A DNA stretch of 64,000 bases, taken from Arcobacter vandammei. Lineage in GTDB: Bacteria; Campylobacterota; Campylobacteria; Campylobacterales; Arcobacteraceae. Shown one piece after another: positions 15,102-32,946 of this stretch (position 1 is the stretch's first letter; each line of letters begins with the position of its first letter). The translations under genes and the position numbers were made by a program. The notes beneath the pieces were generated by a model that did not search any database, was not told where the DNA came from, and worked only from the letters and a program-made list of their open reading frames with translations. The stretch spans positions 1 through 64,000 of the forward strand of contig NZ_JADKPZ010000001.1 of NCBI RefSeq assembly GCF_016106035.1, in the 5' to 3' direction.

Positions 15102-15178
<77 letters not shown>

Positions 15179-15324: not shown

Positions 15325-15336
15325 TGGTGCGGATGA
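15325..15336. repeat. Left attachment site core (attL)
   Basis: Twelve bases tggtgcggatga, identical to the 3' end of tRNA-Leu at 32744-32755. The flanking bases differ on both sides, so the identity block is exactly 12 bp. Confidence 0.85.
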
Positions 15337-15427
15337 TAGGATACTGAAATCCATCAATCACAATGTTTGTGGGAAGTGTAGAATTTTCAAACTTCCAAAT
15401 AAAGTTTCCCATAAGTTTATCAGTCAT
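15325..15427 (-). other. Separated 5' end of the integrase gene, int(N), 34 codons
   Basis: On the minus strand an ATG at 15427 opens 34 sense codons (starting MTDKLMGNF and ending DGFQYPIIRT) that run through the 12-bp core in the same phase as the integrase frame at the other end. Position 15325 and position 32744 are both first codon positions. Circularisation would therefore fuse this stretch to the integrase and give a 517-aa protein with a normal start. In the integrated state the frame enters the flanking DNA instead. No Shine-Dalgarno is visible, but a TATAAT lies just upstream, so translation may be leaderless. A second in-frame ATG is at 15412. Confidence 0.65.
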
Positions 15428-15432
15428 TTGTA

Positions 15433-15460
15433 ATTATAATGTCTGTATTCTTACTTTCAT
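15433..15460 (-). promoter_or_regulatory. Candidate promoter of int(N), now facing tRNA-Gly and tRNA-Arg
   Basis: On the minus strand there is a perfect -10 box TATAAT (15438-15433) with a 4/6 match to a -35 box (ATGAAA at 15460-15455) at 16-nt spacing. Transcription would start near the ATG at 15427. In the integrated state it reads into tRNA-Gly and tRNA-Arg, which have lost their original upstream promoter. Confidence 0.5.
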
Positions 15461-15579
15461 CTTTAACGAATGGAAGTATAGCGAATAAAACTTAGAAAAA
15501 TATTAAAAAATATAAAATAGATAGTAATTATATATATAAAAGTTTACTATGAAAACAAAAAAAGTTTGGGAAAAGAAAA

Positions 15580-15610
15580 GAGTATATCAATTTTTGATGG
15601 TGATATACTC
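15580..15610 (-). terminator. Terminator of the RHH-like gene
   Basis: 10-bp inverted repeat gagtatatca / tgatatactc with an 11-nt loop, followed on the minus strand by a pyrimidine/T-rich tract. It lies 31 nt downstream of the gene at 15642. Confidence 0.6.
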
Positions 15611-15641
15611 CATCCAATGTAATAAGACTTTAGAATCAGTT

Positions 15642-16052
15642 TTATGGTTTTCTTTGGATATGATAACTTTTATCCACCAAATTCATCAACTCATCAATCT
15701 GTTGTGTGATTTTTTCATCCTCTTTCTTTTTCAATTCTCTCTCAAAATTAACAACACAACACATAACCAAATGGGATTTTTTAACATCTAATTTTTTTGA
15801 AAAGAAGTTTAAAACTTCCAAACAATCGAATGGTAAAGTATAAAATTTTGGTATTGTATTTTTTCTTTTTCTAATACTTTTTATAGGTTTACCATTACTA
15901 CTTTCCAATTCTTCATACATTAACTCATAACCATTTTGAATATAAAACAATAAAATCTTACTTTTTGGAATATTCTCCATCAAACTTCTTTTTTCAATAA
16001 TATCCACAACAGATTTTTCTAATGTATAACAAACTTTTTTGTGTTTTCTCAT
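15642..16052 (-). CDS. Small possible DNA-binding protein with two ribbon-helix-helix-like segments
   Basis: I chose the ATG at 16052 (MRKHKKVCYT, 136 aa), although the frame is open to 16064. Two stretches have the strand-helix-helix look of ribbon-helix-helix proteins: YTLEKSVVDIIEKRSLMENI near the N-terminus and LPFDCLEVLNFFSKKLDV near residue 90. The tail is rich in Lys and Glu. It could be a plasmid regulator or a copy-number or partition factor. No close family is recognised. It is the first gene inside the left end of the element. Confidence 0.5.
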   Translation of the reverse strand: MRKHKKVCYTLEKSVVDIIEKRSLMENIPKSKILLFYIQNGYELMYEELESSNGKPIKSIRKRKNTIPKFYTLPFDCLEVLNFFSKKLDVKKSHLVMCCVVNFERELKKKEDEKITQQIDELMNLVDKSYHIQRKP

Positions 16053-16304
16053 TATAAACTCCAATTTATTCTATGTATAAATCTATTTATAATGGATTTC
16101 TAAATATATGTTTAATAGTATGAAAAAGTTTTTAAATTTAGTGAAAATATCAATAAAATAAGGTTTATTTTGGAGGTTAATTTACAGTTTAGATTTGATG
16201 ATAATTTTAGATTGTAGAGTAATAGAATGATGGAAGAAATCCATTATTCTATTACACAAATTTGAAAGGTTGATTTGAAAATGGTTGATAAACTACTTTA
16301 TTAC

Positions 16305-16682
16305 TCAAATTTTTTTGATACCATTAAAAACAAATTTGTTGGTATTCTCATCACTAAAAAATAGAAGTGAACTTTTTAATTTTTTCAATATCTCATTTGG
16401 AGATTTTTTAGTTTTAATTGTAAAGATTGATACATCACCTAATATATAGTGATAATCAACACAATTAAATCCAAAAACTCTTTGATTTGGATATTGTAAG
16501 AAGAAATTATTTGAAGTAAATAATCCATCCTTATCACCAATTTTGTATGAAATAAAATCATAAAATGGAAAGTCAATCAAATCCCTCCCCTTTATATCAT
16601 ATTCTAAATTTTCACCAATATAAATAACTCTTTCACTCTCAACCTCTTTAAATGGGTTGATTAAAAATGTTAATTCTCTCAT
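16305..16682 (-). CDS. Hypothetical protein, 125 aa
   Basis: The frame starts at an ATG at 16682 with a modest AAGGAAAT ribosome site. The protein is acidic and aromatic-rich (DFPFYDFISYKIGDKDG, then YHYILGDVSIFTIKTKK) and looks like a compact alpha/beta domain. It has no signal peptide, membrane span or recognisable motif. The neighbours are other element genes on both strands. Confidence 0.55.
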   Translation of the reverse strand: MRELTFLINPFKEVESERVIYIGENLEYDIKGRDLIDFPFYDFISYKIGDKDGLFTSNNFFLQYPNQRVFGFNCVDYHYILGDVSIFTIKTKKSPNEILKKLKSSLLFFSDENTNKFVFNGIKKI

Positions 16683-16865
16683 AATATTTCCTTATAAAAT
16701 AGAATTTAGAAACTCTCAAAAGGATGAAATCCTCTTTCCCCTTTTCATACATAAATTATAGGAAATTAGTGAAACTTAGGGAGTTTCACTTCGTTTGTAT
16801 AATATGAATGTAAAAGAGATAAAAGGTGTGGTTTAACCACTTATACAAATATTGGGAGTTTAATT

Positions 16866-17201
16866 ATGAAAAAAAGAAAAATCAAATTGGATGATAAGTT
16901 TATATCAGTAGTTAAGGAAGTTGTATCACATTGTTACAATTCATATAACCAAACTAAAGGAATTCAATTCAAAAATTATGGTGATATTATCAATTCAATT
17001 GTTAATGGTAATGTAAATGATTTTTATTTGGGTTATTTAGAAAGTTTTTCTAAATCACAATTAAAGATGGTAAATAAATCTCTAAAAAATAAGAGAAATA
17101 CTAAATCTGAAATAGATTATTATAAAAATCAAAAAAAGATTTTTATTTATCTTTGTGATTGGTTTGAAAAAAATCCAAATCCATCTGTTATAGTTATCTA
17201 A
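16866..17201 (+). CDS. Hypothetical protein, 111 aa
   Basis: ATG at 16866 preceded by GGGAGTTTA. A basic, helical, lysine/asparagine-rich small protein without membrane segments. It may head a short plus-strand transcript with the two following genes. The function is unknown. Confidence 0.55.
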   Translation: MKKRKIKLDDKFISVVKEVVSHCYNSYNQTKGIQFKNYGDIINSIVNGNVNDFYLGYLESFSKSQLKMVNKSLKNKRNTKSEIDYYKNQKKIFIYLCDWFEKNPNPSVIVI

Positions 17202-17247
17202 ATCCTTCCCTTCAACTAAAAAAATCGGTATCATCCTATAAAATGGA

Positions 17248-17448
17248 TTGATACCAATGTTAAAAATCTTCATAACTAACTTATCAGAATATAACAATGA
17301 AAACCTAATTGATAAATGGATTCTTCAATCAGATTTTTCATTTTTAAACCAAACTATCATAAAAATATTATTATCAGACGATAGTAAAAAAAATTTCATA
17401 ATAGATTGGAAATTAAATGATAAAAATATTTTTCAAATTATAAAATAA
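17248..17448 (+). CDS. Hypothetical protein, 66 aa
   Basis: Short frame with N-terminus MIPMLKIFITNLSEYNNEN; its stop overlaps the start of the next gene by 1 nt (TAATG), which suggests coupling. An ATG at codon 4 is also possible. No family is recognised. The pair looks like a small co-translated module. Confidence 0.45.
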   Translation: MIPMLKIFITNLSEYNNENLIDKWILQSDFSFLNQTIIKILLSDDSKKNFIIDWKLNDKNIFQIIK

Positions 17449-17816
17449 TGATACTTATATACTCTCCATTTCCACTTAATGAAAATCAAATCTATAACCA
17501 AATGGAATTATTCAAAGATAAATTGTCTATGTTTTTTGTAGATGACAATAGTTTTATATACAGTAGTGAAACAAATCAAAAATTACTAAGAGAAATTATC
17601 ATCAATCATAAGGTATTTTTATTTTATACCCACTCTATAAAACAAATGGGATTCACACCAACTCAAATAAGTGAATTGATAATATTTTTGTTAAAAAATG
17701 GATGTGAATTTCAATCTGAATTGGAAAATTTGTATTTCAAAAAATCTGATTTAGATACTATATATCCTAAGATATTTGAAATTTTTAGAGATAAAACTAA
17801 TTCTTTCCAAAAGTAA
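17448..17816 (+). CDS. Hypothetical protein, 122 aa
   Basis: Coupled by TAATG overlap to the 66-aa gene. It begins MILIYSPFPLNENQIYNQME and has the alternating strand/helix pattern of a small alpha/beta protein, including FLFYTHSIKQMGFTPTQISE. No known motif is seen. It is convergent with the gene at 17797 and overlaps its 3' end by 20 nt. Confidence 0.5.
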   Translation: MILIYSPFPLNENQIYNQMELFKDKLSMFFVDDNSFIYSSETNQKLLREIIINHKVFLFYTHSIKQMGFTPTQISELIIFLLKNGCEFQSELENLYFKKSDLDTIYPKIFEIFRDKTNSFQK

Positions 17817-18411
17817 AAAATAAATTCTCTAAAACTCTCATCTTTGTTATATCTCTATCAAATCCTAACTGTTTGGTTGATTCATCATAAATTTTTTGAA
17901 ACCTATCATCTGAAATCATTTCCAAACAAATATCTCTATATAGTTGATACTGTTTAACATCCTTATTCTTATTTTGATAAGTTGGTTTCCATATAGACTC
18001 CAATAAATGATTTTCTTTAAAATAATTTTTGATTCTACTATCAAATATTGGATAATCTGTTGGATTGATAAAATGGATTAATTTAGATACACCTACGATT
18101 GAATTATTAATACAATCAACTAACTTTCCATATTCAATATTATTAATTTCAATATGGTTTTTAACCTTATTTAAAATGGTGATAACATCATCGATATTAT
18201 CTTTTGTATTAAATTTTTTTAAGATGGTTGGCATCCATCCATAAGTAAAATATGATGAAATAACTAATGAATGATAATCTATTGTTTCAATTCTTTTGAA
18301 AAACTCTACAAATTCAAAATAACTCTCAAAATAAGATATATTTTCAAATTCTATTTTATAATTTTTTAATGATTCAAAAACTAAATCAATATCTTTTTTA
18401 TTAAAACTCAT
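17797..18411 (-). CDS. Hypothetical protein with FINPTDYPIFDSR motif, 204 aa
   Basis: A helical protein of 204 aa. The central stretch SKLIHFINPTDYPIFDSRIKNYF resembles a motif seen in uncharacterised accessory-region proteins with a helix-hairpin-helix-like core. I cannot assign a function. There is no signal peptide or membrane span. It lies just upstream, on the opposite strand, of the replication origin region. Confidence 0.5.
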   Translation of the reverse strand: MSFNKKDIDLVFESLKNYKIEFENISYFESYFEFVEFFKRIETIDYHSLVISSYFTYGWMPTILKKFNTKDNIDDVITILNKVKNHIEINNIEYGKLVDCINNSIVGVSKLIHFINPTDYPIFDSRIKNYFKENHLLESIWKPTYQNKNKDVKQYQLYRDICLEMISDDRFQKIYDESTKQLGFDRDITKMRVLENLFFTFGKN

Positions 18412-18530
18412 TTTATTTCTCCAATAGATTTTTTGTAATAAATTTTACCTTTAATATCATCTATTTTACATTATTTTAAACATAATTATTATTTTTAAAT
18501 AAGTATCAAAGGTTTGTAACCAACAAAGGG

Positions 18531-18546
18531 AGTGTCGTAAGACACT
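18531..18546. repeat. Perfect hairpin in the origin region
   Basis: agtgtc / gacact with a GTAA loop. It could be a terminator remnant, a protein site or an origin structure; nothing decides between them. Confidence 0.4.
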
Positions 18547-18674
18547 ACCAACTGAAGTCTGAAAGACAAAGAATCCTTTTCTTTTTTTCTTTATTTAATT
18601 TATTTCTTTATTTGAGAGGATTTACCTCTGAGAAACACTTTATTATAAAGGTGAAAAATGGTGATGAGTTAGAA

Positions 18675-18770
18675 TTTATCCAAAATGAACCAACTTTTAT
18701 CCAAAATCATTCAACTTATTCCAATATAAAGTAAGTTTTTTCCAAAATAAATCACATTTTTTCAAAAATC
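18675..18770 (+). repeat. Iteron array (five repeats, 20-21-bp spacing)
   Basis: The core tccaaaat occurs at 18679, 18700 and 18741, with variants tccaatat at 18720 and ttcaaaaa near 18761. Spacings are 21, 20, 21 and 20 bp, close to two helical turns. They lie 60-150 bp upstream of a Rep_3-type initiator gene, as expected for initiator binding sites. Confidence 0.75.
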
Positions 18771-18828
18771 AATAAAAAACTTTTTAAGATTTGTAAAATA
18801 GTTATATATACAATAAAGGAGTATAACA

Positions 18829-19878
18829 ATGTTTACAATTAATAGAGGTCTATGTGAAATTGAATTTAAAAATATCAACTTAGAAAATATTGATGTTGAT
18901 GTAATGGAATATTTGTGGTTTAAAATCAGAGAAAGATATGAAACACCTACTAATAATATTGAAATAGGTTTTAGTGAAATAAAAGAAGGAATTAGAAGAT
19001 ATAGTAAAGATTCCTTTATTTCATCAATACAAAGATTAAATGGTATCACCATTATTACAAACATAAAATCAAATAAACCATCTAAGAGATATAAATTTTA
19101 TTTTACATTATCTGAAGACAAAAAGAGTTTCAAAGTTGAATTTGATGAGAAGATTTTTGTATTGTTTGGTAAATCCAAATCATTCAATTCATATCATCAA
19201 CATAATATTTATCAGTTTAATGAAAAATATTCAAAACTATTTTACAAATTTTTGGTTGGATACAAATTTCTAATAGGTAAATCAATCTTTGTGAGAAGTA
19301 ATGTATTGATGAAGATTTTAAATATCCATACTGATAAATCTATAAGTAAAATACAAAGTGATATTTTTAAATCATCTGTGAACAAAATCAATGAAAAAAC
19401 TGATTTGAATATCTCATTTGATAAAGAGTGTGTAGAGTTTGAAAATGGATTAGAAATTGTAAAATATAGAGTGACTATCAACAGTTATAAAGGAGATACT
19501 GATATGAAAGGAAATGATTTAAAAAGAGAAACTTCAAAGAAAAAATCAGATTATGAAAAAAGAATAGATAAGCGGATTAATAACATAAAATCTGAGTTTG
19601 ATGGAAAATTTGATACAACAAATACAAATAAAATTCCAATTGTTATTCTTAAAAATAAAATTACAAACTTACCAATCTACATTGATGGAGAATACAGATT
19701 AACAGATTTTTTTAATTATTTTACAAAAACACCATTAGAAACATTGAATAAAATTAATGAATGGATTAAAAATGATGATTATAATTATGATATATGGTGG
19801 GTAGATACTTATTTTAAAACATTTGAAAAGGTATGTTTATTGTCACAGAGTGAATTAAAACAAAGAGGATTAATTTAA
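18829..19878 (+). CDS. rep: Plasmid replication initiator, Rep_3 family
   Basis: This 349-aa protein starts at an ATG behind AAAGGAGTATAAC. The N-terminal part matches the winged-helix pair of Rep_3 initiators: YLWFKIRERYETPTNN, SFISSIQRLNGITI, then YQFNEKYSKLFYKFLVGY, where the family has its LxxxYSxxLYxxL stretch. A basic helical segment (KRETSKKKSDYEKRIDKRI) follows the initiator core, and then a C-terminal domain of about 90 aa that I do not recognise. It probably binds the upstream iterons and opens the origin when the element is circular. Whether it is silent in the chromosome is not visible. Confidence 0.75.
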   Translation: MFTINRGLCEIEFKNINLENIDVDVMEYLWFKIRERYETPTNNIEIGFSEIKEGIRRYSKDSFISSIQRLNGITIITNIKSNKPSKRYKFYFTLSEDKKSFKVEFDEKIFVLFGKSKSFNSYHQHNIYQFNEKYSKLFYKFLVGYKFLIGKSIFVRSNVLMKILNIHTDKSISKIQSDIFKSSVNKINEKTDLNISFDKECVEFENGLEIVKYRVTINSYKGDTDMKGNDLKRETSKKKSDYEKRIDKRINNIKSEFDGKFDTTNTNKIPIVILKNKITNLPIYIDGEYRLTDFFNYFTKTPLETLNKINEWIKNDDYNYDIWWVDTYFKTFEKVCLLSQSELKQRGLI

Positions 19879-20057
19879 CCATTACTTCTTAACACAATAA
19901 CCTCTTTAAAATCAACGGAATCAAATCACCCCTCACATTGGTATTCTTTTTATAAAAAAACCTTTGAAGAGAAGATTTGACATTTTTTTTACATTCTATG
20001 TATAAATTTAAAAAATACATAGAATGAGTATAAATAAAAATAAAACAGTTGGAGTTG

Positions 20058-20354
20058 ATGATGAGAAATCCTAATGAAATTGAAAATCTAATTTTTAAAT
20101 CTGTTAAACAATCAAATTTATTTGATGGTGAATGGGAAAGTATGATGTATTCAAATCTTTTAAAAATGATAATCATCAAAGGTGGTGGAATTGAAGAATT
20201 TATTCAACACTATTCACCGTATTTTGATGTATCTGATTTAGAGTATTACTTTAAAGATGATTTAATAAAAAGATATGGAAATGATGGTTATCAACTCTTT
20301 ATTGATTTTGTTGTAGGAGAAAATGATGTTATTGAGAGAAATAAAAGTAGATGA
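20058..20354 (+). CDS. Hypothetical acidic protein, about 98 aa
   Basis: I prefer the ATG at 20058 with GGAG four bases upstream, although the frame is open from 20049. It contains EIENLIFKSVKQSNLFDGEW and a second half with GGGIEEFIQHYSPYFDVSDL. It is weakly similar in layout to the next gene (VDELIFKSISNDE), so the two may be paralogues. It heads a run of six tightly packed small plus-strand genes. Confidence 0.55.
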   Translation: MMRNPNEIENLIFKSVKQSNLFDGEWESMMYSNLLKMIIIKGGGIEEFIQHYSPYFDVSDLEYYFKDDLIKRYGNDGYQLFIDFVVGENDVIERNKSR

Positions 20355-20598
20355 ATTAATTTTTAAAAGTATTTCAAATGATGAAACTACTTATAAAGAT
20401 GAATTTGAAAGAGAGTTTGTTTTATCAATTGTAAAACATTTTTTTAATGAATATGATTGGAATAATTTTGATGGATTTTATGTAGATACGAATACTTATA
20501 ATAAGTATTACAGAGATTTATTTTTGGAATATTATCCATTTTTAGAAAAATACCATATTCAAAAATTACTTAGGGAGAATAGAAATGAATCTATATGA
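20323..20598 (+). CDS. Hypothetical acidic protein, 91 aa
   Basis: Overlaps the previous gene by 32 nt and the next by 14 nt. The stretch DELIFKSISNDETTYKDEFE parallels the start of the preceding protein, suggesting tandem duplication and divergence. It is rich in Asp, Glu, Tyr and Asn. No domain is recognised. Confidence 0.5.
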   Translation: MMLLREIKVDELIFKSISNDETTYKDEFEREFVLSIVKHFFNEYDWNNFDGFYVDTNTYNKYYRDLFLEYYPFLEKYHIQKLLRENRNESI

Positions 20599-20848
20599 AT
20601 TTTTAGAAAATAGAGATTATGAAGAAATTGAGAGTTACATTACAGATTGTATATCTCATAATAAAAACAATGAATTAGATAAATATAGAAAATTAGTCTT
20701 AGTATTAATGTTAAGTGAATTTTTTGAAAGAAAAGATTTCAAACATTTTTACAATAATCATCAATTTGATATAAAAGAGTTAAACCAACAAATAAAACAG
20801 TCAATAAAAGAAAAATTAAATAAGGATAAAAAAAATGAAAGTAAGTGA
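20585..20848 (+). CDS. Hypothetical protein, 87 aa
   Basis: ATG at 20585 with GGGAG upstream. Helical protein beginning MNLYEFLENRDYEEIESYIT and ending in a lysine-rich tail. Its stop overlaps the next start by 14 nt. Unknown function. Confidence 0.5.
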   Translation: MNLYEFLENRDYEEIESYITDCISHNKNNELDKYRKLVLVLMLSEFFERKDFKHFYNNHQFDIKELNQQIKQSIKEKLNKDKKNESK

Positions 20849-21071
20849 TTTAAACAAAGATATTCAAAATATCAAAAATCAAAAACCTTTATCAAATGAG
20901 AATAAAGACAAACTGAGAAATGTTTTAACAAATATGTTTGATGTAATAGAGAAATTTGAAAGAAATGGAGTAATTGATAAAAACTCCACTCAAAAAATTG
21001 ATTTTTTAAAAGATACCATAAAATCAATTATCAAAGACGAGGATGAGAAGAAAATCATTAGAGGTGAATAA
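20835..21071 (+). CDS. Hypothetical helical protein, 78 aa
   Basis: Small charged helical protein (KVSDLNKDIQNIKNQK, then LTNMFDVIEKFERNGVID). Coupled to its neighbours by overlap upstream and a 2-nt gap downstream. No recognised family. Confidence 0.5.
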   Translation: MKVSDLNKDIQNIKNQKPLSNENKDKLRNVLTNMFDVIEKFERNGVIDKNSTQKIDFLKDTIKSIIKDEDEKKIIRGE

Positions 21072-21073
21072 TA

Positions 21074-21298
21074 ATGAAAGAGTATGAGATATTTGATGAT
21101 TTTTTAAAAAAATCCAAAAAAATCAGAGAGTTTTGTGATGATAGAGAAAAAATGTTATTTGAATCAATCAGAATGGAAATTTCAAATGATGGAAAAATCC
21201 ATTGGTTGAATTCCATTGTGTATGAAATTGATAAGGTTTTATCTTTTATTGACAGATTATCAAATGAAAGAAAATCTCAATTTAATTTAAAAAAGTAA
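21074..21298 (+). CDS. Hypothetical protein, 74 aa
   Basis: ATG at 21074, 2 nt after the previous stop. Charged helical protein (DDFLKKSKKIREFCDDREKM). Last of the tightly coupled block. Unknown. Confidence 0.5.
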   Translation: MKEYEIFDDFLKKSKKIREFCDDREKMLFESIRMEISNDGKIHWLNSIVYEIDKVLSFIDRLSNERKSQFNLKK

Positions 21299-21374
21299 TC
21301 CATTTTATTAAAAATGATTTTTATATTTAAACAATTTTGGGGTAAAATCTAAAAAATAACTCTAAGGAAACACA

Positions 21375-21746
21375 ATGGATAAATCTCAGTTACAACTTCA
21401 AATTTTACAACTTAGTGAATTACAAAATATCTGTAATGATATTATTGAAATTGAATCAAATAAACAAAATGATACAGAATTAGTAAAGTTATTAAAAAAA
21501 GACTATAGATTATCAAATGATGAAATTAATTCTATTTCAACGATTGTTTTAGGTAAGAAAAAAGGTGAAAGTGTTGATAAAAAATCATTAGATTTATTAA
21601 AAAATAAATGTGAATCTTACTGTATGATTTGTGAAATCAATCCAAAAGATAAAGATGGTAAATTTATTGGTTATGGAAAAATCAAAACTCGGTCATCTAA
21701 TAAGAAAAACTCTTTAAACAAGAAGTTAAAAGAGATGGGAGAGTAA
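21375..21746 (+). CDS. Hypothetical protein, 123 aa
   Basis: ATG at 21375 behind AAGGAAACACA. The N-terminal half is coiled and Gln/Leu-rich (QLQLQILQLSELQNICNDI). The C-terminal half has two cysteines (KCESYCMICEINPKD) that could bind metal, but the spacing fits no zinc finger I know. A strong terminator follows. Confidence 0.5.
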   Translation: MDKSQLQLQILQLSELQNICNDIIEIESNKQNDTELVKLLKKDYRLSNDEINSISTIVLGKKKGESVDKKSLDLLKNKCESYCMICEINPKDKDGKFIGYGKIKTRSSNKKNSLNKKLKEMGE

Positions 21747-21758
21747 TTAGTCTCCCAT
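21735..21758. terminator. Bidirectional terminator between convergent genes
   Basis: Perfect 8-bp inverted repeat atgggaga / tctcccat with an 8-nt loop, between the stops of the genes ending at 21746 (plus) and 21759 (minus), with T and A tracts on either side. Confidence 0.75.
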
Positions 21759-22370
21759 TTATAATTTATTAAATATTTCTTTCCACTCTTTCTTTTTATC
21801 TTCAATAGAAGTTCTCTGTTGAAATGATGGAGATTTTAACTTTACCCATTTAATATTTTTATCATCAAAATTTATATTATCAAATTTATTAGTATCTTTT
21901 TTAGAATCTCTATTTACACAACATTTTATTTTTTCAGAAAAAAGTGATGTTGAAAGTTTTTCTACATATTCAGAAGTAAATAAAATTGTATCTATCTCTG
22001 TATTCTCAATATATTTGAAAATATCTTTGAATGATATAGGAATAATATCTGAATCAGATGATGATTGTTTATGTCTATAAATTTGATGGAATAAATCAAT
22101 AAATCCAATATAATTTTTTGTTGAAAATTCTTTTCTTTTTTCAATTGAATCTAAATCATTTAAATCTACATCAAATACAGATGAAATTATTTCCCAAAAA
22201 CTATTATCTTTACTACCATAAAACCAATTAACATCATCATCTTCTAAACGATTAATACAAAATCTATGTGGTGGAATTGTTCCAACAATAAGATATTTTG
22301 TATCATTTTTTATAAATGGTTCAAATGGGTGTGTATCTACATTAACTATGTTATTAATAATAAAATCCAT
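21759..22370 (-). CDS. Uracil-DNA glycosylase superfamily-like protein in the type III R-M operon
   Basis: The N-terminus of this 203-aa protein matches the superfamily pattern. A hydrophobic strand and catalytic-loop-like segment KYLIVGTIPPHRFC is followed by WFYGSKDNSFWEIISSVF, resembling the YYxxPxNxFWxxL of MUG and deoxyinosine glycosylases. These enzymes excise deaminated bases. The second active-site motif near the C-terminus (KLKSPSFQQRTS) is where the family has a loop with SPS and a DNA-intercalating segment. It starts 2 nt after the tiny HsdS-like frame and ends the R-M operon. The role could be base repair, recognition of modified phage DNA, or a structural derivative. Confidence 0.6.
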   Translation of the reverse strand: MDFIINNIVNVDTHPFEPFIKNDTKYLIVGTIPPHRFCINRLEDDDVNWFYGSKDNSFWEIISSVFDVDLNDLDSIEKRKEFSTKNYIGFIDLFHQIYRHKQSSSDSDIIPISFKDIFKYIENTEIDTILFTSEYVEKLSTSLFSEKIKCCVNRDSKKDTNKFDNINFDDKNIKWVKLKSPSFQQRTSIEDKKKEWKEIFNKL

Positions 22371-22372
22371 AT

Positions 22373-22489
22373 TTATAACTCTCCTCTAAAAGCTTTATCC
22401 AAAATTGAAGCCTTTAATGCTTTAAGGCTATCCATTTTTTCTTTTTGGATTGATTTAACTTTTTCTATTTTTTCAGAAATTTCATCCAT
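22373..22489 (-). CDS. 38-aa peptide resembling the C-terminus of HsdS
   Basis: The start codon overlaps the stop of the Res gene (ATGGATGA), and the stop lies 2 nt before the next gene. The peptide is a short coiled coil ending in LKASILDKAFRGEL, which closely resembles the conserved last residues of type I specificity subunits (LKxSILxKAFxGEL). It may be a remnant of an hsdS gene or a functional assembly peptide. Tight coupling on both sides argues that it is translated. Confidence 0.6.
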   Translation of the reverse strand: MDEISEKIEKVKSIQKEKMDSLKALKASILDKAFRGEL

Positions 22490-25109: not shown

Positions 25110-27133
25110 TACTTAACCTCATAAAATTCTCTATTGAATTTTTTTACTTCATCTGATATATCAAATTGTATATCATCTATTTCAGAATAGTTTACATAAA
25201 GATGATTTTTATCCAATATTTTAATAAGTATTTCTTTTTGTTCATCCATTGGTAATGTATCAAATTGATTTTTATCATCAAATAGATTCTCATCTTTAAC
25301 TTCATATCTTATGAAGTTAGAATTTTTCAATTCATTTTTTATTTCAATTAGTTGTTCTGATGTAGTGGACTCAGTAATAGCATCTATGTATGTTTGATTA
25401 TTTTTCATCAATTCCATATATATGAATGAACCTCCACCATTCCAATTAACAAATTTAGATATACCACTTTTGTCCCCATTAACTACATTTTTCAATCTAC
25501 ATAATGTATCATTATCTCCATAATCTAATTGTTCTAACCCAATAAATTGTCTGTTAAGTTTTTTAGCTACTGATACTGTTGTTCCACTTCCACTAAAAAA
25601 ATCCATTACAATATCATTTTCTTTTGTAGATAATTCTATAATTCTTCTCAATAATTTTTCTGGTTTTTTAGCATTTTTTAATGTTACTCCACCTTCATTA
25701 GCTATTCCATCCCAACTTATATCTCTCCAAAAATCTGTAAGTAATTCAGTTGATGTTTCAACTCCATCTATAGTTTTTACTTTATTGGAATAAAACGATA
25801 ATGCTCCTCCATTTACAATATATCCAAGACTTCCATCTTCTCTATTATATGTATAAACTTTATTTCTATCAGTAGATGATAAATTCATTAATTCTTTAAC
25901 TTTATCAGATGGTTTATGTGGATCTCTTATACTAACAACTTTATCTTTATGTTTTAATGCATATTCTGAGATTAATTGTTCTCTAATCACTTTCCAATGT
26001 ATTCCCCATTTGTTTTCTGCATTTTTATTTGATTTATGAAATGTATCACCAATTTCTATATTATTTTCTCTATATACACAATCTCTAATGTTTTCCAATT
26101 TCCATTCTGTTGGTTTGTCTTCAATATTTATTATTACGAATTTATAGTTATCATCATATTCTGTAGGTACATATTGTTTATTAAATTCAAATTCTTTTCT
26201 ATTTTTTACATAAAATAATATATATTCTGTTACATCTATTGGTCCTGGATTAACTGTTTTAAATCCAGCAGGTGAAGCAGTTTTCACTGAAATTAATTGA
26301 ACAAAAGATTTATTGTTCTTTTCTTTCATACTTTCATTAAATAATTCATCTATTAAAATTTTAAGATATGCTAATTCATTATAATCTATATGTACAAATA
26401 ATGCTCCATCTTTGGATAATAATTTTATTGCTATTTCTAATCTATTTTTCATAAATGTAAGCCAACTACTATGATTAAATTTATCATTATATCCAAAGCT
26501 ATCAGAACCAGTATTGTATGGTGGGTCAATATAAATTAACTTTACTCTTCCCTCATATCTTTTTGATAATGAATGTAACGCAATTAAGTTATTCCCTTTA
26601 ATCAATAAATTGTCAGTATGTTTGAAAGTTGGATTTTCTTCCATTCCATTTTTTGTATACTTTTTTATATTTGTAAATACTTTTGGATGTAATAATCTAT
26701 CTACTTCATCATTAGCTAATGTTTCATTGTAGAAAAATTCTTTTAGTGATTGTTCTTCTTTACTTTGTCCACCCTCTAAAATACAATCTTTATAAGGAAA
26801 ATTCAATACAACATCTTTTGATTTTTTTATAAAATCTGTTCCATCTGATAATCCAATATAATTCAAATATGATGTATAAGATGATGGGAAAAATTCTTTA
26901 TGGTTGATTGTATTGATAAACTTATCTTTCAAAAATATCTTTGTATCTTTTACTGTTTTAAAATATGTGTTTGAAAGTTTCACATCTGATAGTAATAATT
27001 CTAATATTTCCTCACTATCATTTTGAGAATCATAAATCACTTTTGATTTAAGTAAATCTCCATTTTCATCAAAATACTGTTCTTTTGTTTTTAATTTCTC
27101 TATTAAATTATCATATGTTTCTGTTAATCTCAT
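25109..27133 (-). CDS. mod: Type III DNA adenine methyltransferase (Mod)
   Basis: This 674-aa N6-adenine methyltransferase supplies both modification and site recognition. It has the beta-class order: catalytic DPPYNTGSDSFGYND (about residue 202) and later the SAM-binding motif DFFSGSGTTVSVAKKL (about 510). The region between (about 270-440) is the probable target recognition domain. I see no simple sequence repeats of the kind that make Mod phase-variable in related bacteria. It is preceded by the 297-aa gene and followed with overlap by res. Confidence 0.94.
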   Translation of the reverse strand: MRLTETYDNLIEKLKTKEQYFDENGDLLKSKVIYDSQNDSEEILELLLSDVKLSNTYFKTVKDTKIFLKDKFINTINHKEFFPSSYTSYLNYIGLSDGTDFIKKSKDVVLNFPYKDCILEGGQSKEEQSLKEFFYNETLANDEVDRLLHPKVFTNIKKYTKNGMEENPTFKHTDNLLIKGNNLIALHSLSKRYEGRVKLIYIDPPYNTGSDSFGYNDKFNHSSWLTFMKNRLEIAIKLLSKDGALFVHIDYNELAYLKILIDELFNESMKEKNNKSFVQLISVKTASPAGFKTVNPGPIDVTEYILFYVKNRKEFEFNKQYVPTEYDDNYKFVIINIEDKPTEWKLENIRDCVYRENNIEIGDTFHKSNKNAENKWGIHWKVIREQLISEYALKHKDKVVSIRDPHKPSDKVKELMNLSSTDRNKVYTYNREDGSLGYIVNGGALSFYSNKVKTIDGVETSTELLTDFWRDISWDGIANEGGVTLKNAKKPEKLLRRIIELSTKENDIVMDFFSGSGTTVSVAKKLNRQFIGLEQLDYGDNDTLCRLKNVVNGDKSGISKFVNWNGGGSFIYMELMKNNQTYIDAITESTTSEQLIEIKNELKNSNFIRYEVKDENLFDDKNQFDTLPMDEQKEILIKILDKNHLYVNYSEIDDIQFDISDEVKKFNREFYEVK

Positions 27134-27147
27134 TTATTTCCTTTATT

Positions 27148-28041
27148 TTAAAACTCAAATATATCCATTGATGGAGTTACTTCACCAATTAATTTAGTAA
27201 TTTTCTCTTTTTCTTCTGATGGTAAATCATTTATCATCTCTCTTACTTTTTCAATATCATCTCTTAATCCATCTTCTGATGAATTTTCAATTGAAAGGAT
27301 TTGTTTTATATCTGATTGGTTTTGAGATATGAAGTTATCAAAATGAATATCAAATCCATTTTCTTTGATAGTTACTTTTTTAATTTTTGTATTGTTTAAT
27401 TCAATAGTGTTTCCAAAGTTTTCAAACTTTACATTTACATTGATTTGAGAATCAATAATACTCATAATTACATCTAATGGATACCCATTAGTTTTATCAC
27501 TCATATTTTGAATATTATGGTGTTTCACAACTACTTTACCAATGGTTTGAGATACAAAATCTGTTTGAAAACCAAATAGTTGTGATTCTAATACTGTTTT
27601 TATCAATTCATCATATATAGTTAAATCTTTTATGGATAAAACCATAGATGAAATATTTTGGGATAATTTAATTCTTCCTTCTTTAGTTTGTGGAATATGT
27701 AAATCTACACCATAATCTTCATCTTTATCATCAATATCTTTATCATATAATCTAACTCTGTATTGATTAGGTTTTAACTCAACTATATTTCCATTATTAT
27801 CAGTTATCTCAGTAACCTTTACAAAGATACTACTACCTACATAAAAATCAACAACTCTTTTAACCATAGATTTAACTGATGTATCTGTTGGATCATCAAA
27901 TAGTTTTTCTCTGATTTCACTATTCATAAAGGATTTACCTTTATTTTCCATCATTAATATTAATACATTCACATATGTATCAAATATAGTATCTTTTGTG
28001 TGAATTACTTTTCTATCTGTTTTATTTTCTTCACTCATCAT
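27148..28041 (-). CDS. First gene of the type III R-M operon, unknown (possibly regulator)
   Basis: This 297-aa protein begins with a helical region (TIFDTYVNVLILMMENKGK, NSEIREKLFDDPTDTSVKSM) that looks like a winged helix. A beta-rich middle follows (residues about 85-125), and a part around 190-245 (MSIIDSQINVNVKFENFGN) has the flavour of a WYL-type ligand domain. That would fit a regulator of a defence operon, but the match is weak. The gene lies 14 nt upstream of mod in the same direction and has a GAGAG ribosome site. Confidence 0.55.
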   Translation of the reverse strand: MMSEENKTDRKVIHTKDTIFDTYVNVLILMMENKGKSFMNSEIREKLFDDPTDTSVKSMVKRVVDFYVGSSIFVKVTEITDNNGNIVELKPNQYRVRLYDKDIDDKDEDYGVDLHIPQTKEGRIKLSQNISSMVLSIKDLTIYDELIKTVLESQLFGFQTDFVSQTIGKVVVKHHNIQNMSDKTNGYPLDVIMSIIDSQINVNVKFENFGNTIELNNTKIKKVTIKENGFDIHFDNFISQNQSDIKQILSIENSSEDGLRDDIEKVREMINDLPSEEKEKITKLIGEVTPSMDIFEF

Positions 28042-28282
28042 AATCTCTCTTAAAATATATAAAAAATAGTTATTGATTTTACCTTCTTTTCCGTTAATTG
28101 TGGTTGAACAAAAAACCGACTCTTAGAGAGATTAACTATGATTGTAATATATGAGTATCAAAAGGAAAAGATACCTATTTAAAGGGATTTTCCTTCGGTT
28201 ATGAGAGTTGGTGGAGCGAATTTTATTGAGATTCGGTAGTTAGGAATAATTACAGTAACAAAACAAAAAGAAGGAGTTACCA

Positions 28283-28864
28283 ATGAGTAATTACAAAGTA
28301 GAAGATGTTGTAAAGAGTATCAAAAGTGATTGGTTGTATGTGATGGGTTATCACAGATGTATAGAGTTATACAATGATGATGAGTGGTGTAACCAATTCC
28401 TATCTTCTCAATATCAAAACTTTGAGATAGTGATTGTAAGAGATGTTGATGGTATGGAAGATGGGTTTTATATAGTTGATAGAAACTATACAAAATTCAC
28501 ACATTCACCATTCATAAGAAATCTTATCTCCCAAATAGTAGTTAAGGAGAAAAGAAAAAAAAGAGTAAGTATGATTGATGGTTTTGTAATCAGAAACAAA
28601 ACCTATTCAAAAAGTATTGATAAGTTTTTTATCAACTATATCAAAAACAATACCATTGTTTATTACACTTATGATGAATTTGTAGAAGAGTTTAACCCTT
28701 ATAAAATAAAACCATCAAATAGAGGGGATTATAAACCTCACACAAAATCTCATCACACAGTAAATGGGTTTTGGAGAAAACAATGGTATGGAAGTAGAAG
28801 TAACCCTCAATACAAAATGATTTGGATTGAAAGTTTTGAGAGAGGTGGTAAAAAGGTTGGGTAA
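28283..28864 (+). CDS. Hypothetical protein, 193 aa
   Basis: ATG at 28283 with AAGGAG seven bases upstream. Soluble, rich in Tyr, Trp and basic residues. It contains HSPFIRNLISQIVVKEKRKK and a C-terminal SRSNPQYKMIWIESFERGG. No domain is recognised. It is divergent from the R-M operon across a 240-bp gap. Confidence 0.55.
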   Translation: MSNYKVEDVVKSIKSDWLYVMGYHRCIELYNDDEWCNQFLSSQYQNFEIVIVRDVDGMEDGFYIVDRNYTKFTHSPFIRNLISQIVVKEKRKKRVSMIDGFVIRNKTYSKSIDKFFINYIKNNTIVYYTYDEFVEEFNPYKIKPSNRGDYKPHTKSHHTVNGFWRKQWYGSRSNPQYKMIWIESFERGGKKVG

Positions 28865-28872
28865 TTCCAACC
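28855..28872 (+). terminator. Short hairpin at the end of the 193-aa gene
   Basis: ggttgg / ccaacc with a 6-nt loop straddles the stop codon. There is no long T run, so it is a weak terminator candidate. Confidence 0.35.
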
Positions 28873-28975
28873 CCAACCAACTACTGAATCTCCCTCGGAT
28901 TCACTCTCTTTATATAATTTATATACAAAGGAGGAAGTGATACTTCCTCTTTAAATTCAATACTAAGGATACAAA

Positions 28976-29125
28976 ATGAAAACAATAAATTTTTCATTAT
29001 CAACAAAAGATGTTTTGGAGTTACTTCCATTCACTAACCAAAATGGTTTAAACATTCTATGTGATAGTGGTAGATTGAAAAGAAAGAAAAGATTGGGAAA
29101 ATGGGTTTATGATAAAAATCTGTAA
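28976..29125 (+). CDS. Small excisionase-like protein, 49 aa
   Basis: A short frame with ATG at 28976 and AAGGATACAAA upstream. It begins MKTINFSLSTKDVLELLPF and ends with a basic LKRKKRLGKWVYDKNL, the helix-turn-helix plus wing layout of Xis/AlpA/MerR-type small proteins. It could act as recombination directionality factor for one of the two recombinases. The assignment rests on length, charge and layout only. Confidence 0.45.
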   Translation: MKTINFSLSTKDVLELLPFTNQNGLNILCDSGRLKRKKRLGKWVYDKNL

Positions 29126-29130
29126 ACTCA

Positions 29131-29463
29131 TTGAAACAACAAATTGGTATGGATGAGTATGTTTCAATCTCTGAAACTAAACAGATGTTGGAAACCAATG
29201 GTATCAAAGATATTTTCCAAAGATTCTCAGATAAGAGTGAAACTCTCAAATGTAAGTATCACAGAGTAACAAATGAGTTTCCAATGAGTGTATCTAACCT
29301 AATCAAATATGGTTACTTAGATGTTGATGGTGATATAACCCCAAAGATGATTAAAAAAGAGAGTGTTATCAAAACTATCAAACACTTTTCAAAAGGGGTG
29401 AAACAAAATGTTTCAACTCCTTCAAATAATATAGGTTTTAACCAACAGAAAAAAATTGGATAA
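29131..29463 (+). CDS. Hypothetical protein, about 104-110 aa
   Basis: Starts with TTG at 29131 or ATG at 29149, six or more bases after the previous stop, neither with a clear ribosome site. Contains DEYVSISETKQMLETNGIK, reminiscent of a helix-turn-helix, and a middle part PMSVSNLIKYGYLDVDGDIT. Possibly DNA-binding. Unknown. Confidence 0.45.
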   Translation: MKQQIGMDEYVSISETKQMLETNGIKDIFQRFSDKSETLKCKYHRVTNEFPMSVSNLIKYGYLDVDGDITPKMIKKESVIKTIKHFSKGVKQNVSTPSNNIGFNQQKKIG

Positions 29464-29572
29464 CCGAAACTGAGGGAGATTCAATATCTCTCTATAATAA
29501 AGATGTAAATGGGAAAGAAGTGAGTTTATCTCAATAATTAAATTTAAAATAGTAAGAAAGGAAAATACTACT

Positions 29573-30094
29573 ATGGGTAATTGGGTTTATAATGAAGTAA
29601 ATATGATGGGTAAACAAACTGAGGTGGATAGATTTGTGGAAATTGGTATGGATATTTCTGAAAATGGTAATAAAATGTTTAACTTTCATAATTTCTTTAC
29701 TAATACAGATGTAACAATTAATGGTATTCAATATAATGAATTAACAGAAGTTATTCAAAATAAAATTTGGAGTAGATTTATTCAAACATCAAATGGATTT
29801 TACTTATCAACTGAATATGAAAATAAATCAATGAGATATGAAACAAAAGGGTATCCTCCATTGGGATTTTATATCACATTTGGTTTGATGTTTGATATTA
29901 TCTTTAAAATTAAATCTGAAGATGATTCTGATCAATATTGGGATTACATTGTATATAAAGGTGAAATTATATACAGAGAGTTTTCACAATACAATGATGA
30001 AAAAAAAGAAAAAATTCTAACAGATGATTTTATGGTTTACAGAGAAGAAAAATTTGAATTAGATAACAATGGTGTATTTAACTTAGATTTCTAA
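29573..30094 (+). CDS. Hypothetical protein, 173 aa
   Basis: ATG at 29573. A soluble protein with a central hydrophobic stretch (YPPLGFYITFGLMFDIIFKI) and an acidic second half. No recognised domain. It stands alone between the 110-aa gene and the small recombinase. Confidence 0.5.
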   Translation: MGNWVYNEVNMMGKQTEVDRFVEIGMDISENGNKMFNFHNFFTNTDVTINGIQYNELTEVIQNKIWSRFIQTSNGFYLSTEYENKSMRYETKGYPPLGFYITFGLMFDIIFKIKSEDDSDQYWDYIVYKGEIIYREFSQYNDEKKEKILTDDFMVYREEKFELDNNGVFNLDF

Positions 30095-30229
30095 ACATAT
30101 TAAAACAACCATTTTAATAAGATTTCCCTAATTAAGGGAATCACTTCAAAACCCTAAAAAGTCGCCCTTCCGTAAAGTATTTTTTTACGGTAGGATGATA
30201 TTTATTAATACTTTTAAGGGATAAAATCA

Positions 30230-30811
30230 ATGAGACCAAAAAATACACAAAGAAATTCAAAACCAATTTTAGAAAGAGAATATAAAATTCTTAAATCATA
30301 TATAAATGGATTAGAAACATTTGAAACGACAAAAATCAAATGGTTAAGAAGTTTGGAAATTTTATATATGGGTGGAATGAGAGTATCTGAAATTTTAGAT
30401 ATTAAAATCAAAGATATAAAAGATGGAATTGAAAAATCTGAATTAACTATATATGTTAAAAAACAAAAAATTATCAGACATATTCCACTATCTGAAAAAT
30501 CTGTAAAGGTTTTAAAAAAACTGATTGAAAATGAAACTGATATAAATGGTTACTTTATCCATAAAAGAAATAATGTAAGAAATAATCTTAATTCAATTGG
30601 ATTTACTAAAGATTTCAATCAACTTATTCAAATTGTATTAGGGAAAAATTATTCAACACACAGTTTTAGAAAAGGAATTATCACAGAAATGGGTGTAAGT
30701 GGTATAAATCCAAAAATCATTCAACATTTTGTATCACATAAGAATATATCAACAACTTTGAATTACATCAATCCAACATCTGATGATATTAGAAATTCTT
30801 TATTGAGATAA
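30230..30811 (+). CDS. Small tyrosine recombinase, catalytic domain only
   Basis: This 193-aa protein carries the full catalytic set: Arg in GGMRVSEILDI, Lys in VKKQKIIRHIPL, HxxR in HSFRKG, His in HFVSHKN and the nucleophile Tyr in TTLNYINP. It lacks the usual N-terminal core-binding domain and is about the size of FimB/FimE invertases. Possible jobs are multimer resolution of the circular form, inversion of an internal segment, or helping the main integrase. ATG at 30230 with AAGGGATAAAATCA upstream. Confidence 0.8.
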   Translation: MRPKNTQRNSKPILEREYKILKSYINGLETFETTKIKWLRSLEILYMGGMRVSEILDIKIKDIKDGIEKSELTIYVKKQKIIRHIPLSEKSVKVLKKLIENETDINGYFIHKRNNVRNNLNSIGFTKDFNQLIQIVLGKNYSTHSFRKGIITEMGVSGINPKIIQHFVSHKNISTTLNYINPTSDDIRNSLLR

Positions 30812-30867
30812 TTATCTCAATTAACCCAATTATTCCAAATAAACCAAATATCTTTAGGAGAAAAACT

Positions 30868-31281
30868 ATGAAACTACCAACAATTATAAAAAACATTCTT
30901 ATTGAAACATATTTAGATTTTGAAAATATTAATACAGATGGTGATGTATCAAAAATAAATTTAAAAAATCTATTATTAGAGATTAAAAATGGAAAAGATG
31001 AAATCAATATATTAGATTCATCTGTATTGTTTGAATTCTTTTACAATGGATATAAAATATTTAAAAAATCACAAAATATAGATGAAATTAGATTACAGAA
31101 TGACACTATCAACTACTATGATGATTTACACAAAAAATATTTTGATGATATAGATTTTAAGAGTTTGGATAAAAATAATCCAATAACTTTACAGATTATG
31201 AGTAATTCAATTTACTGTGAAAACTTTATTCTAATTGATTGGATAAAAAAGAATTTTAACATTGTTTATTTTGGGGAATAA
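30868..31281 (+). CDS. Hypothetical protein, 137 aa
   Basis: ATG at 30868 with TAGGAGAAAAACT upstream. Acidic and helical (LLLEIKNGKDEINILDSS, then LFEFFYNGYKIFKKSQN). Convergent with the integrase, separated by a terminator. Unknown function. Confidence 0.5.
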   Translation: MKLPTIIKNILIETYLDFENINTDGDVSKINLKNLLLEIKNGKDEINILDSSVLFEFFYNGYKIFKKSQNIDEIRLQNDTINYYDDLHKKYFDDIDFKSLDKNNPITLQIMSNSIYCENFILIDWIKKNFNIVYFGE

Positions 31282-31288
31282 TTTCCCC
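31273..31288. terminator. Hairpin between convergent genes
   Basis: ggggaa / ttcccc with a TAAT loop, overlapping the stop of the 137-aa gene and preceding the integrase stop. Confidence 0.5.
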
Positions 31289-31292
31289 TAAC

Positions 31293-32743
31293 TTAGATAG
31301 GTAAAAAATCAGATGATGAAAAATAGATAGAGAAATCAACCTTATCTATTCTTTCTTTAAGGGTTTTCCAATTTCTCTTACCCCTAATGTAGTGGGTATC
31401 AGTTACATCACTTTTTGTAGAGTGACCCACCAATGTTTTAATCTCTAAATCTGAAAAAAATCCACTTAAACTGATAGTTTGTGAGAAATTTTTTCTAAAA
31501 CTATGTAAATCAACAACTTTTTTAGTTTCTTCTCCAACAACATCTTTAATGTAACCATTTAATTTAGTTCCAATTTTTTCACTTCTATATTTATTGGTTA
31601 ATTTTATATTGAAAAATAAGTAATCATCACTATTTTTTCCATCCATTTGTATTTTTAAATCATCAACTATATCTTTATGAATAATAGAAATTCTTTTAGA
31701 ATTTTTGGTTTTTTTACCATCAATTTCAATCAAAGATTTCTCAAAATCAATATCACCAACAGTAGGTATTAATCCCTCTTCTCTTCTCAATCCACAGTAA
31801 AGTAAGAATTTCATAAATCTATATTCTTCTATCAAATCTTTAGTATTTAAATAAAAAAATATTCCTTTTAATTCACTCTCAGAAAATTCTCTTTTTTCTG
31901 TTTCTACTCTTTTAATACCATTTCCAACTTTTTTAAATGGATTTTTGTATATATAGGTATTTTCTTCAAAATATTCAAATATTGTTATAACTTTTTTAAT
32001 AATCTCATTTACAGTTGATACTTTAAGTTTTTCATACTTATCTAACATTTTAGGAGTTTTCTCATAGATTAGTTTTAAATCTTTACCAACTAAATCTTTT
32101 TTCTTTTTCCAATCTGATGGAATTGATAGTAAAAAAAGTTGAAAATCCATATTATCTTTTTGTGTAATATCTTTCACTAATTTTTTTTCACCAAAATATA
32201 TATTTAGAAATTCAATACATTGTTTAAATTTATACATTACTTTTACAGATGTTTTAACTTTCTCTCTATATTTAATATATTCATCTGTTAATTTTTTAAG
32301 ACTATTTGTATCTCTTATTTCATCAGTTTCAATATTTACACTATGTTGTTGAGTTTTTAATCTTTTGATTTTATTTACAATAGTTTTTTCAATCTCTTTA
32401 AGTAACTTTTCTTCTGTCTCATTTTCTGCGACTAAATTCAAAGAATTCTTACCTATAAATGTTGTGTATCCTTTTCCGACAAATCCCATCTTACTCAACC
32501 TATATAATATTTTTAATTTTAAAAGGATACCTAAAGTGAGGTTAGATGTATGTAAAGATTTTTTAAAAATAATTGATTCATTAAATCTTATTACAAAATA
32601 ATAAATACCATTCCTATTGAGTAAATATTTCTCATTATATAATGATAATTTCTTTAAAAGTTTCTCAGTTTGATTAAGTTTATCAAAAGTTTCCCAAAGT
32701 GTTTGATTGTACGATAAAATGGGGGTTTCTGAAGTGTTTGTAG
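31293..32743 (-). CDS. int: Element integrase, main part (int(C)), tyrosine recombinase
   Basis: The frame runs without a stop from 31293 through 32743 and on into tRNA-Leu up to a GTG at 32822. There is no ATG, GTG or TTG in frame between the tRNA end and the conserved N-terminal domain (NRNGIYYFVIRFNE, the usual arm-binding type start); the first ATG is about 36 codons deeper. The catalytic residues are all present: Arg in YCGLRREEGL, Lys in KKTKNSKRIS, HSFRKNF, GHSTKSD and Tyr in DTHYIRG. It belongs to phage/ICE-type integrases acting on tRNA 3' ends. The natural 5' end appears to lie at the other end of the element (15325-15427). Confidence 0.9.
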
Positions 32744-32755
32744 TGGTGCGGATGA
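32744..32755. repeat. Right attachment site core (attR)
   Basis: tggtgcggatga, the 3' end of tRNA-Leu(TAG) with CCA, identical to 15325-15336. Confidence 0.85.
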
Positions 32756-32829
32756 AGAGACTCGAACTCTTACACCGCGAGGCACCAGATCCTAAGTCTG
32801 GCGTGTATACCAATTTCACCACATCCGCA
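32744..32829 (-). tRNA. tRNA-Leu (anticodon TAG), integration target
   Basis: 86-nt class II tRNA with a long variable arm, acceptor TGCGGAT / ATCCGCA, anticodon loop CTTAGGA and encoded CCA. Its last 12 bases are the attachment core, and insertion leaves the tRNA intact. Confidence 0.95.

Positions 32830-32869: not shown

Positions 32870-32946
<77 letters not shown>

Follow-up and report, generated by a model that had tools for sequence, protein, structure and literature searches.

SSV-type suicidal integrases carry attP, the attachment site of the circular element, inside the integrase gene int, and a 2021 review states that these recombinases occur exclusively in archaea (PMC8371274). Integration in these systems (SSV1/2, pTN3, pT26-2), mostly at tRNA targets, splits the gene into int(N) and int(C), with the catalytic domain in int(C) (PMC8371274). 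The bacterial tyrosine integrase of Mx8 (and Mx9) also has attP within its coding sequence and is altered on integration (PMC6070905, PMC4701971); there the 3' end of int is changed, a 112-residue C-terminus gives way to 13 residues, and the enzyme is weaker but active. The att site of streptococcal rumA integrative and conjugative elements likewise lies within the integrase gene (PMC4701971), which encodes a serine recombinase that changes at its C-terminus. The Islander authors excepted integrases that extend across attP and named Mx8 and SSV (PMC4383910). The subject here is a 17.4-kb element integrated at a tRNA-Leu gene of Arcobacter vandammei, in the first 64,000 nucleotides of contig NZ_JADKPZ010000001.1 (the window), whose tyrosine integrase gene appears to be split at its 5' end with loss of the start codon. 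A first-pass annotation of this DNA had noted that such a split was not known to it as usual in bacteria, which holds for the type that removes the start but not for attP inside int as such, since Mx8 and the rumA elements, altered at the C-terminus, were already described. Literature searches covering open-licence papers returned no description of a Campylobacterota split-integrase family.

Two further systems make gene output depend on the form of the att junction, circular or integrated: integration-dependent immunity in mycobacteriophage BPs (PMC4557955) and ICEclc, for which Pcirc is listed as the intB13 promoter (PMC2892462). The BPs junction alters the C-terminus of the repressor and the integrase start codon is not removed. 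Integration of ICEclc exchanges the promoter only, again without removal of the integrase start codon. Lambda-type (heterobivalent) integrases resemble the Campylobacterota design, in which most elements have repeats on both arms as putative arm-type sites, in an arm-binding-like N-terminal module and a three-part fold, whereas lambda int lies beside attP and not across it.

The window locus consists of the following features.
15337..32743, no strand: body of the integrated element, about 17.4 kb between direct core repeats, with flanks that are contiguous in congeners
15325..15336, no strand: far copy of the att core, 12 bp, same letters as 32744-32755
32744..32755, no strand: second, near core copy, which forms the 3' end of tRNA-Leu (CCA included)
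32744..32828, minus strand: tRNA-Leu (tag) called by ARAGORN, the integration target, restored by the element
15325..15427, minus strand: int(N), an ATG and 34 codons in a phase that matches int through the core, arranged alike in relatives
31293..32743, minus strand: int(C), the integrase body, PF00589, with R, H-x-x-R, H and Y conserved

The two copies of the core, TGGTGCGGATGA, are identical. The left flank and the tRNA cluster adjoin each other with 85-92% identity in most genomes of the same genus, and these empty sites identify the 17.4 kb as an insertion. Two copies of tRNA-Arg (tct), about 99% alike, stand on either side of the element (15102-15178 and 32870-32946), and such tRNA copies likewise recur near the insertion site in congeners. 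The int product matches PF00589 (1.9e-11), and R354, H448, R451, H475 and Y486 are invariant across 10 sequences.

From the ATG at 15427-15425 on the minus strand, 34 codons and one further base extend to 15325, and 15325 and 32744 are each a first codon position. Joined in silico, 15427 to 15325 and 32743 to 31293 form a single uninterrupted frame of 517 amino acids in which the core occupies codons 31-35, so it does not lie at the int 3' end. The int frame of the integrated copy enters tRNA-Leu, and its first 80 post-core codons include no start; an in-frame TTG appears first 81 codons, and an ATG first 84 codons, past the core. The first-pass annotation had proposed the matching phase, the entry into tRNA-Leu without a start ahead of the conserved domain and a 517-codon frame that excision would rebuild, and all three agree with the sequence. 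Its statement on the missing start applies past the core and left undiscussed the in-frame GTG and TTG codons that are present within tRNA-Leu itself. It was also right to caution that a 34-codon open stretch is not significant alone. Random arms drawn from the same DNA supply an in-phase ATG with a chance of about 0.22, which makes the single-locus evidence weak by itself, and the case for a split gene rests on relatives.

A search of 100 related genomes returned two such relatives, here labelled G075 (49% identity, int running out of tRNA-Arg) and G094 (int running out of transfer-messenger RNA, tmRNA), with a second core copy 8.5 kb and 6.0 kb away, respectively. In the far arm of each, a ribosome site accompanies an ATG that matches the int phase (AAAAGGAAAATTTCAAAATG, AAAAGGGTATCAAATG). 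Profile searches of the order, the phylum and families added further Campylobacterota integrases (26 in all) and raised the total to 27 elements, window included; in the contig search the window protein as sole query gave no match and an alignment as query gave ten loci. In all 27 elements int reads straight on into a tRNA or tmRNA gene at its 3' end, and the targets are of eight kinds (Leu, Arg, Val, Met, Ser, Asn, Phe and tmRNA); in G248 just the 3' part of tRNA-Val adjoins int. All placed members belong to the order or phylum of the window genome, several being labelled Sulfurimonas, Sulfurospirillum or Campylobacterales, and the int(C) frame is intact in most. The same design, with int out of tRNA-Ser, is seen in L108, a 3-kb contig that carries the label Candidatus Gracilibacteria and is perhaps mis-binned, otherwise a case outside the phylum. 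A core and near-arm remnant without the body (L004 1501-1653; G030 C15:140760-140912; 71% identity over 51 amino acids) is a fossil of the split-integrase family at a tRNA-like 3' end.

Both ends were located in 12 elements, and the far-arm statistics cover these; the far ends of G248, G345, G355, G109, G166, G415, G414, G150, G644, G722, G706, G649 and G605 were not located, for most because the contig or the stretch examined stops before the end. An in-phase far-arm ATG is present in 10 of the 12 (null 0.22-0.32 each, tail about 9e-5), and an in-phase ATG with a ribosome motif in 8 (null 0.05-0.10 each, tail about 4e-7). An eleventh element pairs an in-phase GTG with AAGG, and the sole failure, G659, has no far-arm start and a truncated int. 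Outside the int phase, the remaining two frames hold a start with a ribosome motif in four cases: G133 and G392, where it is the second ATG of ATGTATG, G275, where it is a GTG, and G613, which is atypical. The int(N) peptides are alike within subfamilies, for example MSIKPINKGFCGYNKAWSNFPSS and MYSKPLFKGVAGYNENWSCLPLC. Against a null drawn from the same DNA, the 12 elements reject a chance open frame. The first-pass annotation had suggested looking for homologues with left-end sequence in the full frame; such homologues were found, and in one case the junction is contiguous.

That case is G619, which holds a tandem array at tRNA-Phe (L146 9263-10783) where the core links one element's far arm to the near arm of a second element. 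The inner junction, behind GGAGGT, encodes MTSYPHFMGFFTINTESNQSEISHHNPYFTDF...YYYFNIR, so that int(N), the core codons and the start of the integrase body form one contiguous frame; the second integrase of the array is truncated farther downstream. By the same logic any tandem insertion is predicted to rebuild a complete int at its inner junction. G392 C3 (L061/L052) holds another tandem att array, with two further core copies and degenerate int(N) copies.

Selection on the integrase was measured in close pairs. The ratio of nonsynonymous to synonymous substitution rates is 0.07-0.13 for int(C), and the first 45 post-core codons show 31% synonymous versus 13% nonsynonymous change (four pairs pooled, P about 2e-5). 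Purifying selection on these codons implies translation over much of the region's past, though most integrated members have no preceding ATG.

Two repeat pairs flank the core of the fused frame.
15401..15422, minus strand: far-arm repeat pair TGATAAACTTA TGGGAAACTTT, putative arm-type sites within int(N) just past the ATG, common to the near arm
32675..32696, minus strand: near-arm repeat pair TGGGAAACTTT TGATAAACTTA, putative arm-type sites within int(C)

Most elements have 10-20 bp repeats common to the far and near arms (TGTCCAACTTTTTGTCCAAC in G240, TGACAACTTTAAAACAACTT in G661). On the near side they lie about 45-90 bp inside int(C); on the far side they precede the end of the core by about 75-135 bp and sit beside or over the start codon. 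This layout is that of the arm-type sites of lambda-like integrases, here putative sites, and raises the possibility that Int binds where its own frame starts. A structure model that covers int(C) only (mean predicted local distance difference test score 77, predicted template modelling score 0.44) orders the protein as 14-17 disordered residues, a helix, a module of three strands and a helix that looks like an arm-binding domain, and the core-binding and catalytic regions; among the structures it matches in the PDB are Tn1549 Int, XerA and lambda Int. The lost 34 codons precede the disordered stretch, and integration therefore seems to remove start signals and not a recognisable domain. The loss of the first 34 codons, as first proposed, stands with this refinement.

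The bacterial elements differ from the SSV type in several respects. Their hosts are bacterial, their integrases match PF00589, and PF16795 (Phage_integr_3) was not matched by the window protein at E up to 1 or by 14 members at E up to 0.01. The exact core repeats of resolved elements are 12-23 bp compared with 40-50 bp, arm-type-like repeats lie on both sides, and int(N) is followed by a disordered stretch. Membership in the SSV type is rejected on domain, hosts and short cores: the Campylobacterota elements work like SSV-type suicidal integrases but belong to a different family.

The best overall explanation, to which we assign a probability of roughly 0.85, places attP within the 5' end of int, so that integration removes the start and should switch the enzyme off. 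The 17.4-kb element would exist as a plasmid-like circle with a Rep3 initiator and with attP within the 5' end of its own int. The far arm of the circle would provide the start codon and the first 34 or so codons, in most relatives also the ribosome-binding site; from there the frame would run on through the 12-bp tRNA-Leu core, then the near arm, to reach the body of the integrase. Integration at the tRNA-Leu 3' end would part the start signals from the body and leave int(C) behind the tRNA, its first 80 post-core codons free of starts, which fits an integrated copy that makes no active integrase and should switch the enzyme off and stabilise the insert. A promoter in the far arm and a silent integrated copy are expected in cells, and excision would occur only with Int from another copy, either an incoming element or an int rebuilt at a tandem inner junction. 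The features that carry this explanation are legible in the DNA: the fused frame, the empty sites, the design common to Campylobacterota elements, the arm repeats, the contiguous fusion and the purifying selection.

Several observations weigh against this explanation. The window ATG at 15427 has no ribosome site, and promoter-like matches around it number 4 versus 2.7 ± 1.4 by chance. The -10 candidate is the following.
15433..15438, minus strand: TATAAT, possible -10 box, 5 nucleotides upstream of the ATG, weak and near chance

At that spacing it would yield a leaderless mRNA. The missing ribosome site and a -10 box too near the ATG are the weakest link within the window, and while phase and missing start, which had been cited jointly with TATAAT as support, are retained, the TATAAT is weak. 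An ATG occurs 5-15 codons past the core in G075, G094, G644a and G661; in G075 and G661 this ATG is part of a repeat that also occurs in the far arm, whose own ATG has the better ribosome site. G133 and G392 are closely related, and the 12 far-arm trials are thus not all independent. Some of the apparent selection may reflect constraint on arm-site DNA. No free circle or close free relative was found in PLSDB plasmids, INPHARED phages or IMG/VR.

Among the other explanations, a tuned switch fares best, although it is judged doubtful: the gene would be split, but low-level int(C) made from a weak start behind the tRNA would still excise the element. The modelled arm-binding-like, core-binding and catalytic regions all fall within int(C), the mostly intact int(C) frames are under purifying selection, and Mx8 retains an enzyme of lower activity when integrated (PMC6070905, PMC4701971). 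However, time spent as circles may account for the selection equally well, and the canonical starts are poorly placed, given the 80 post-core codons of the window without one and, in most members, a first ATG at least 66 codons past the core, beyond the arm-binding-like module. A start in the tRNA or past the core, whether non-canonical, internal or reached by read-through from the tRNA promoter, is improbable. The far-arm frame would then be a by-product of attP arm sites in AT-rich DNA, a proposal that gains from the repeats common to both arms, the single-locus chance of 0.22-0.32, the window ATG without a ribosome site and the GTG and TTG codons inside tRNA-Leu. It is disfavoured by members that have no start there: G275, G345, G109, G722a and G659 offer no ATG, GTG or TTG in the upstream open stretch or in the first 60 post-core codons. 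It is further opposed by the 8 elements out of 12 that combine the right phase, an ATG and a ribosome site (about 4e-7), by the selection on codons directly past the core and by the contiguous frame of G619. A dead relic with a fossil fused frame, for which the degenerate G659 and the G030 remnant are precedents, is very improbable because int in the window is free of stops, with its catalytic residues retained, both cores are identical, and the Rep3 and type III genes are open frames.

Other genes of the element include a replication initiator and cargo.
18829..19878, plus strand: Rep3 plasmid replication initiator (PF01051, 1.6e-5, above the curated cut-off)
22482..27133, minus strand: type III restriction-modification genes res and mod, cargo (PF04851, PF01555, PF12564)

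The window and G075 each encode Rep3, whereas G094 has a replication protein of the GPA-like kind; FtsK/SpoIIIE-like ATPases are encoded by several elements, and the genes of both kinds were seen in G075, G094, G133 and G620 (L009-L012, L051, L060, L141). By gene content the elements look like self-replicating integrative plasmids, unlike typical prophages, and such a plasmid would plausibly profit from alternating between a replicating circle and a silent insert. A second tyrosine recombinase of 193 amino acids (30230-30811, plus strand; PF00589, 1.3e-22) adjoins int, is almost a catalytic domain alone and may serve to resolve plasmid dimers.

More distant relatives (G006, G394, L035, L045, L081, L082) have an ATG just ahead of the equivalent of the arm-binding module, and the start of these unsplit relatives corresponds to a position about 75 residues into the window protein. 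This later start suggests that the split family probably arose by upstream extension of int through attP. A quick tree with 26 split proteins shows strong clustering (2 changes versus 10.4 in shuffles); the split set is not strictly one clade, and the unsplit G669 falls within it with weak support.

A bolder reading, judged less likely than not, is a clade of bacterial integrases in which attP, arm sites, start signals and coding sequence would form one module that acts as a one-way switch without a directionality factor. Tandem insertion would rebuild int in such a module, and excision would be sensitive to copy number or superinfection. The same design is kept across eight kinds of tRNA and tmRNA genes in a diverse bacterial family with another recombinase domain and lambda-like arm repeats. 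Integrated copies are likely to be annotated as truncated, mis-started or pseudogenes, and their true start is found only by closing the circle. These bacterial elements are offered for testing the questions posed by suicidal integrases: re-escape, specificity switching and the upkeep of gene function.

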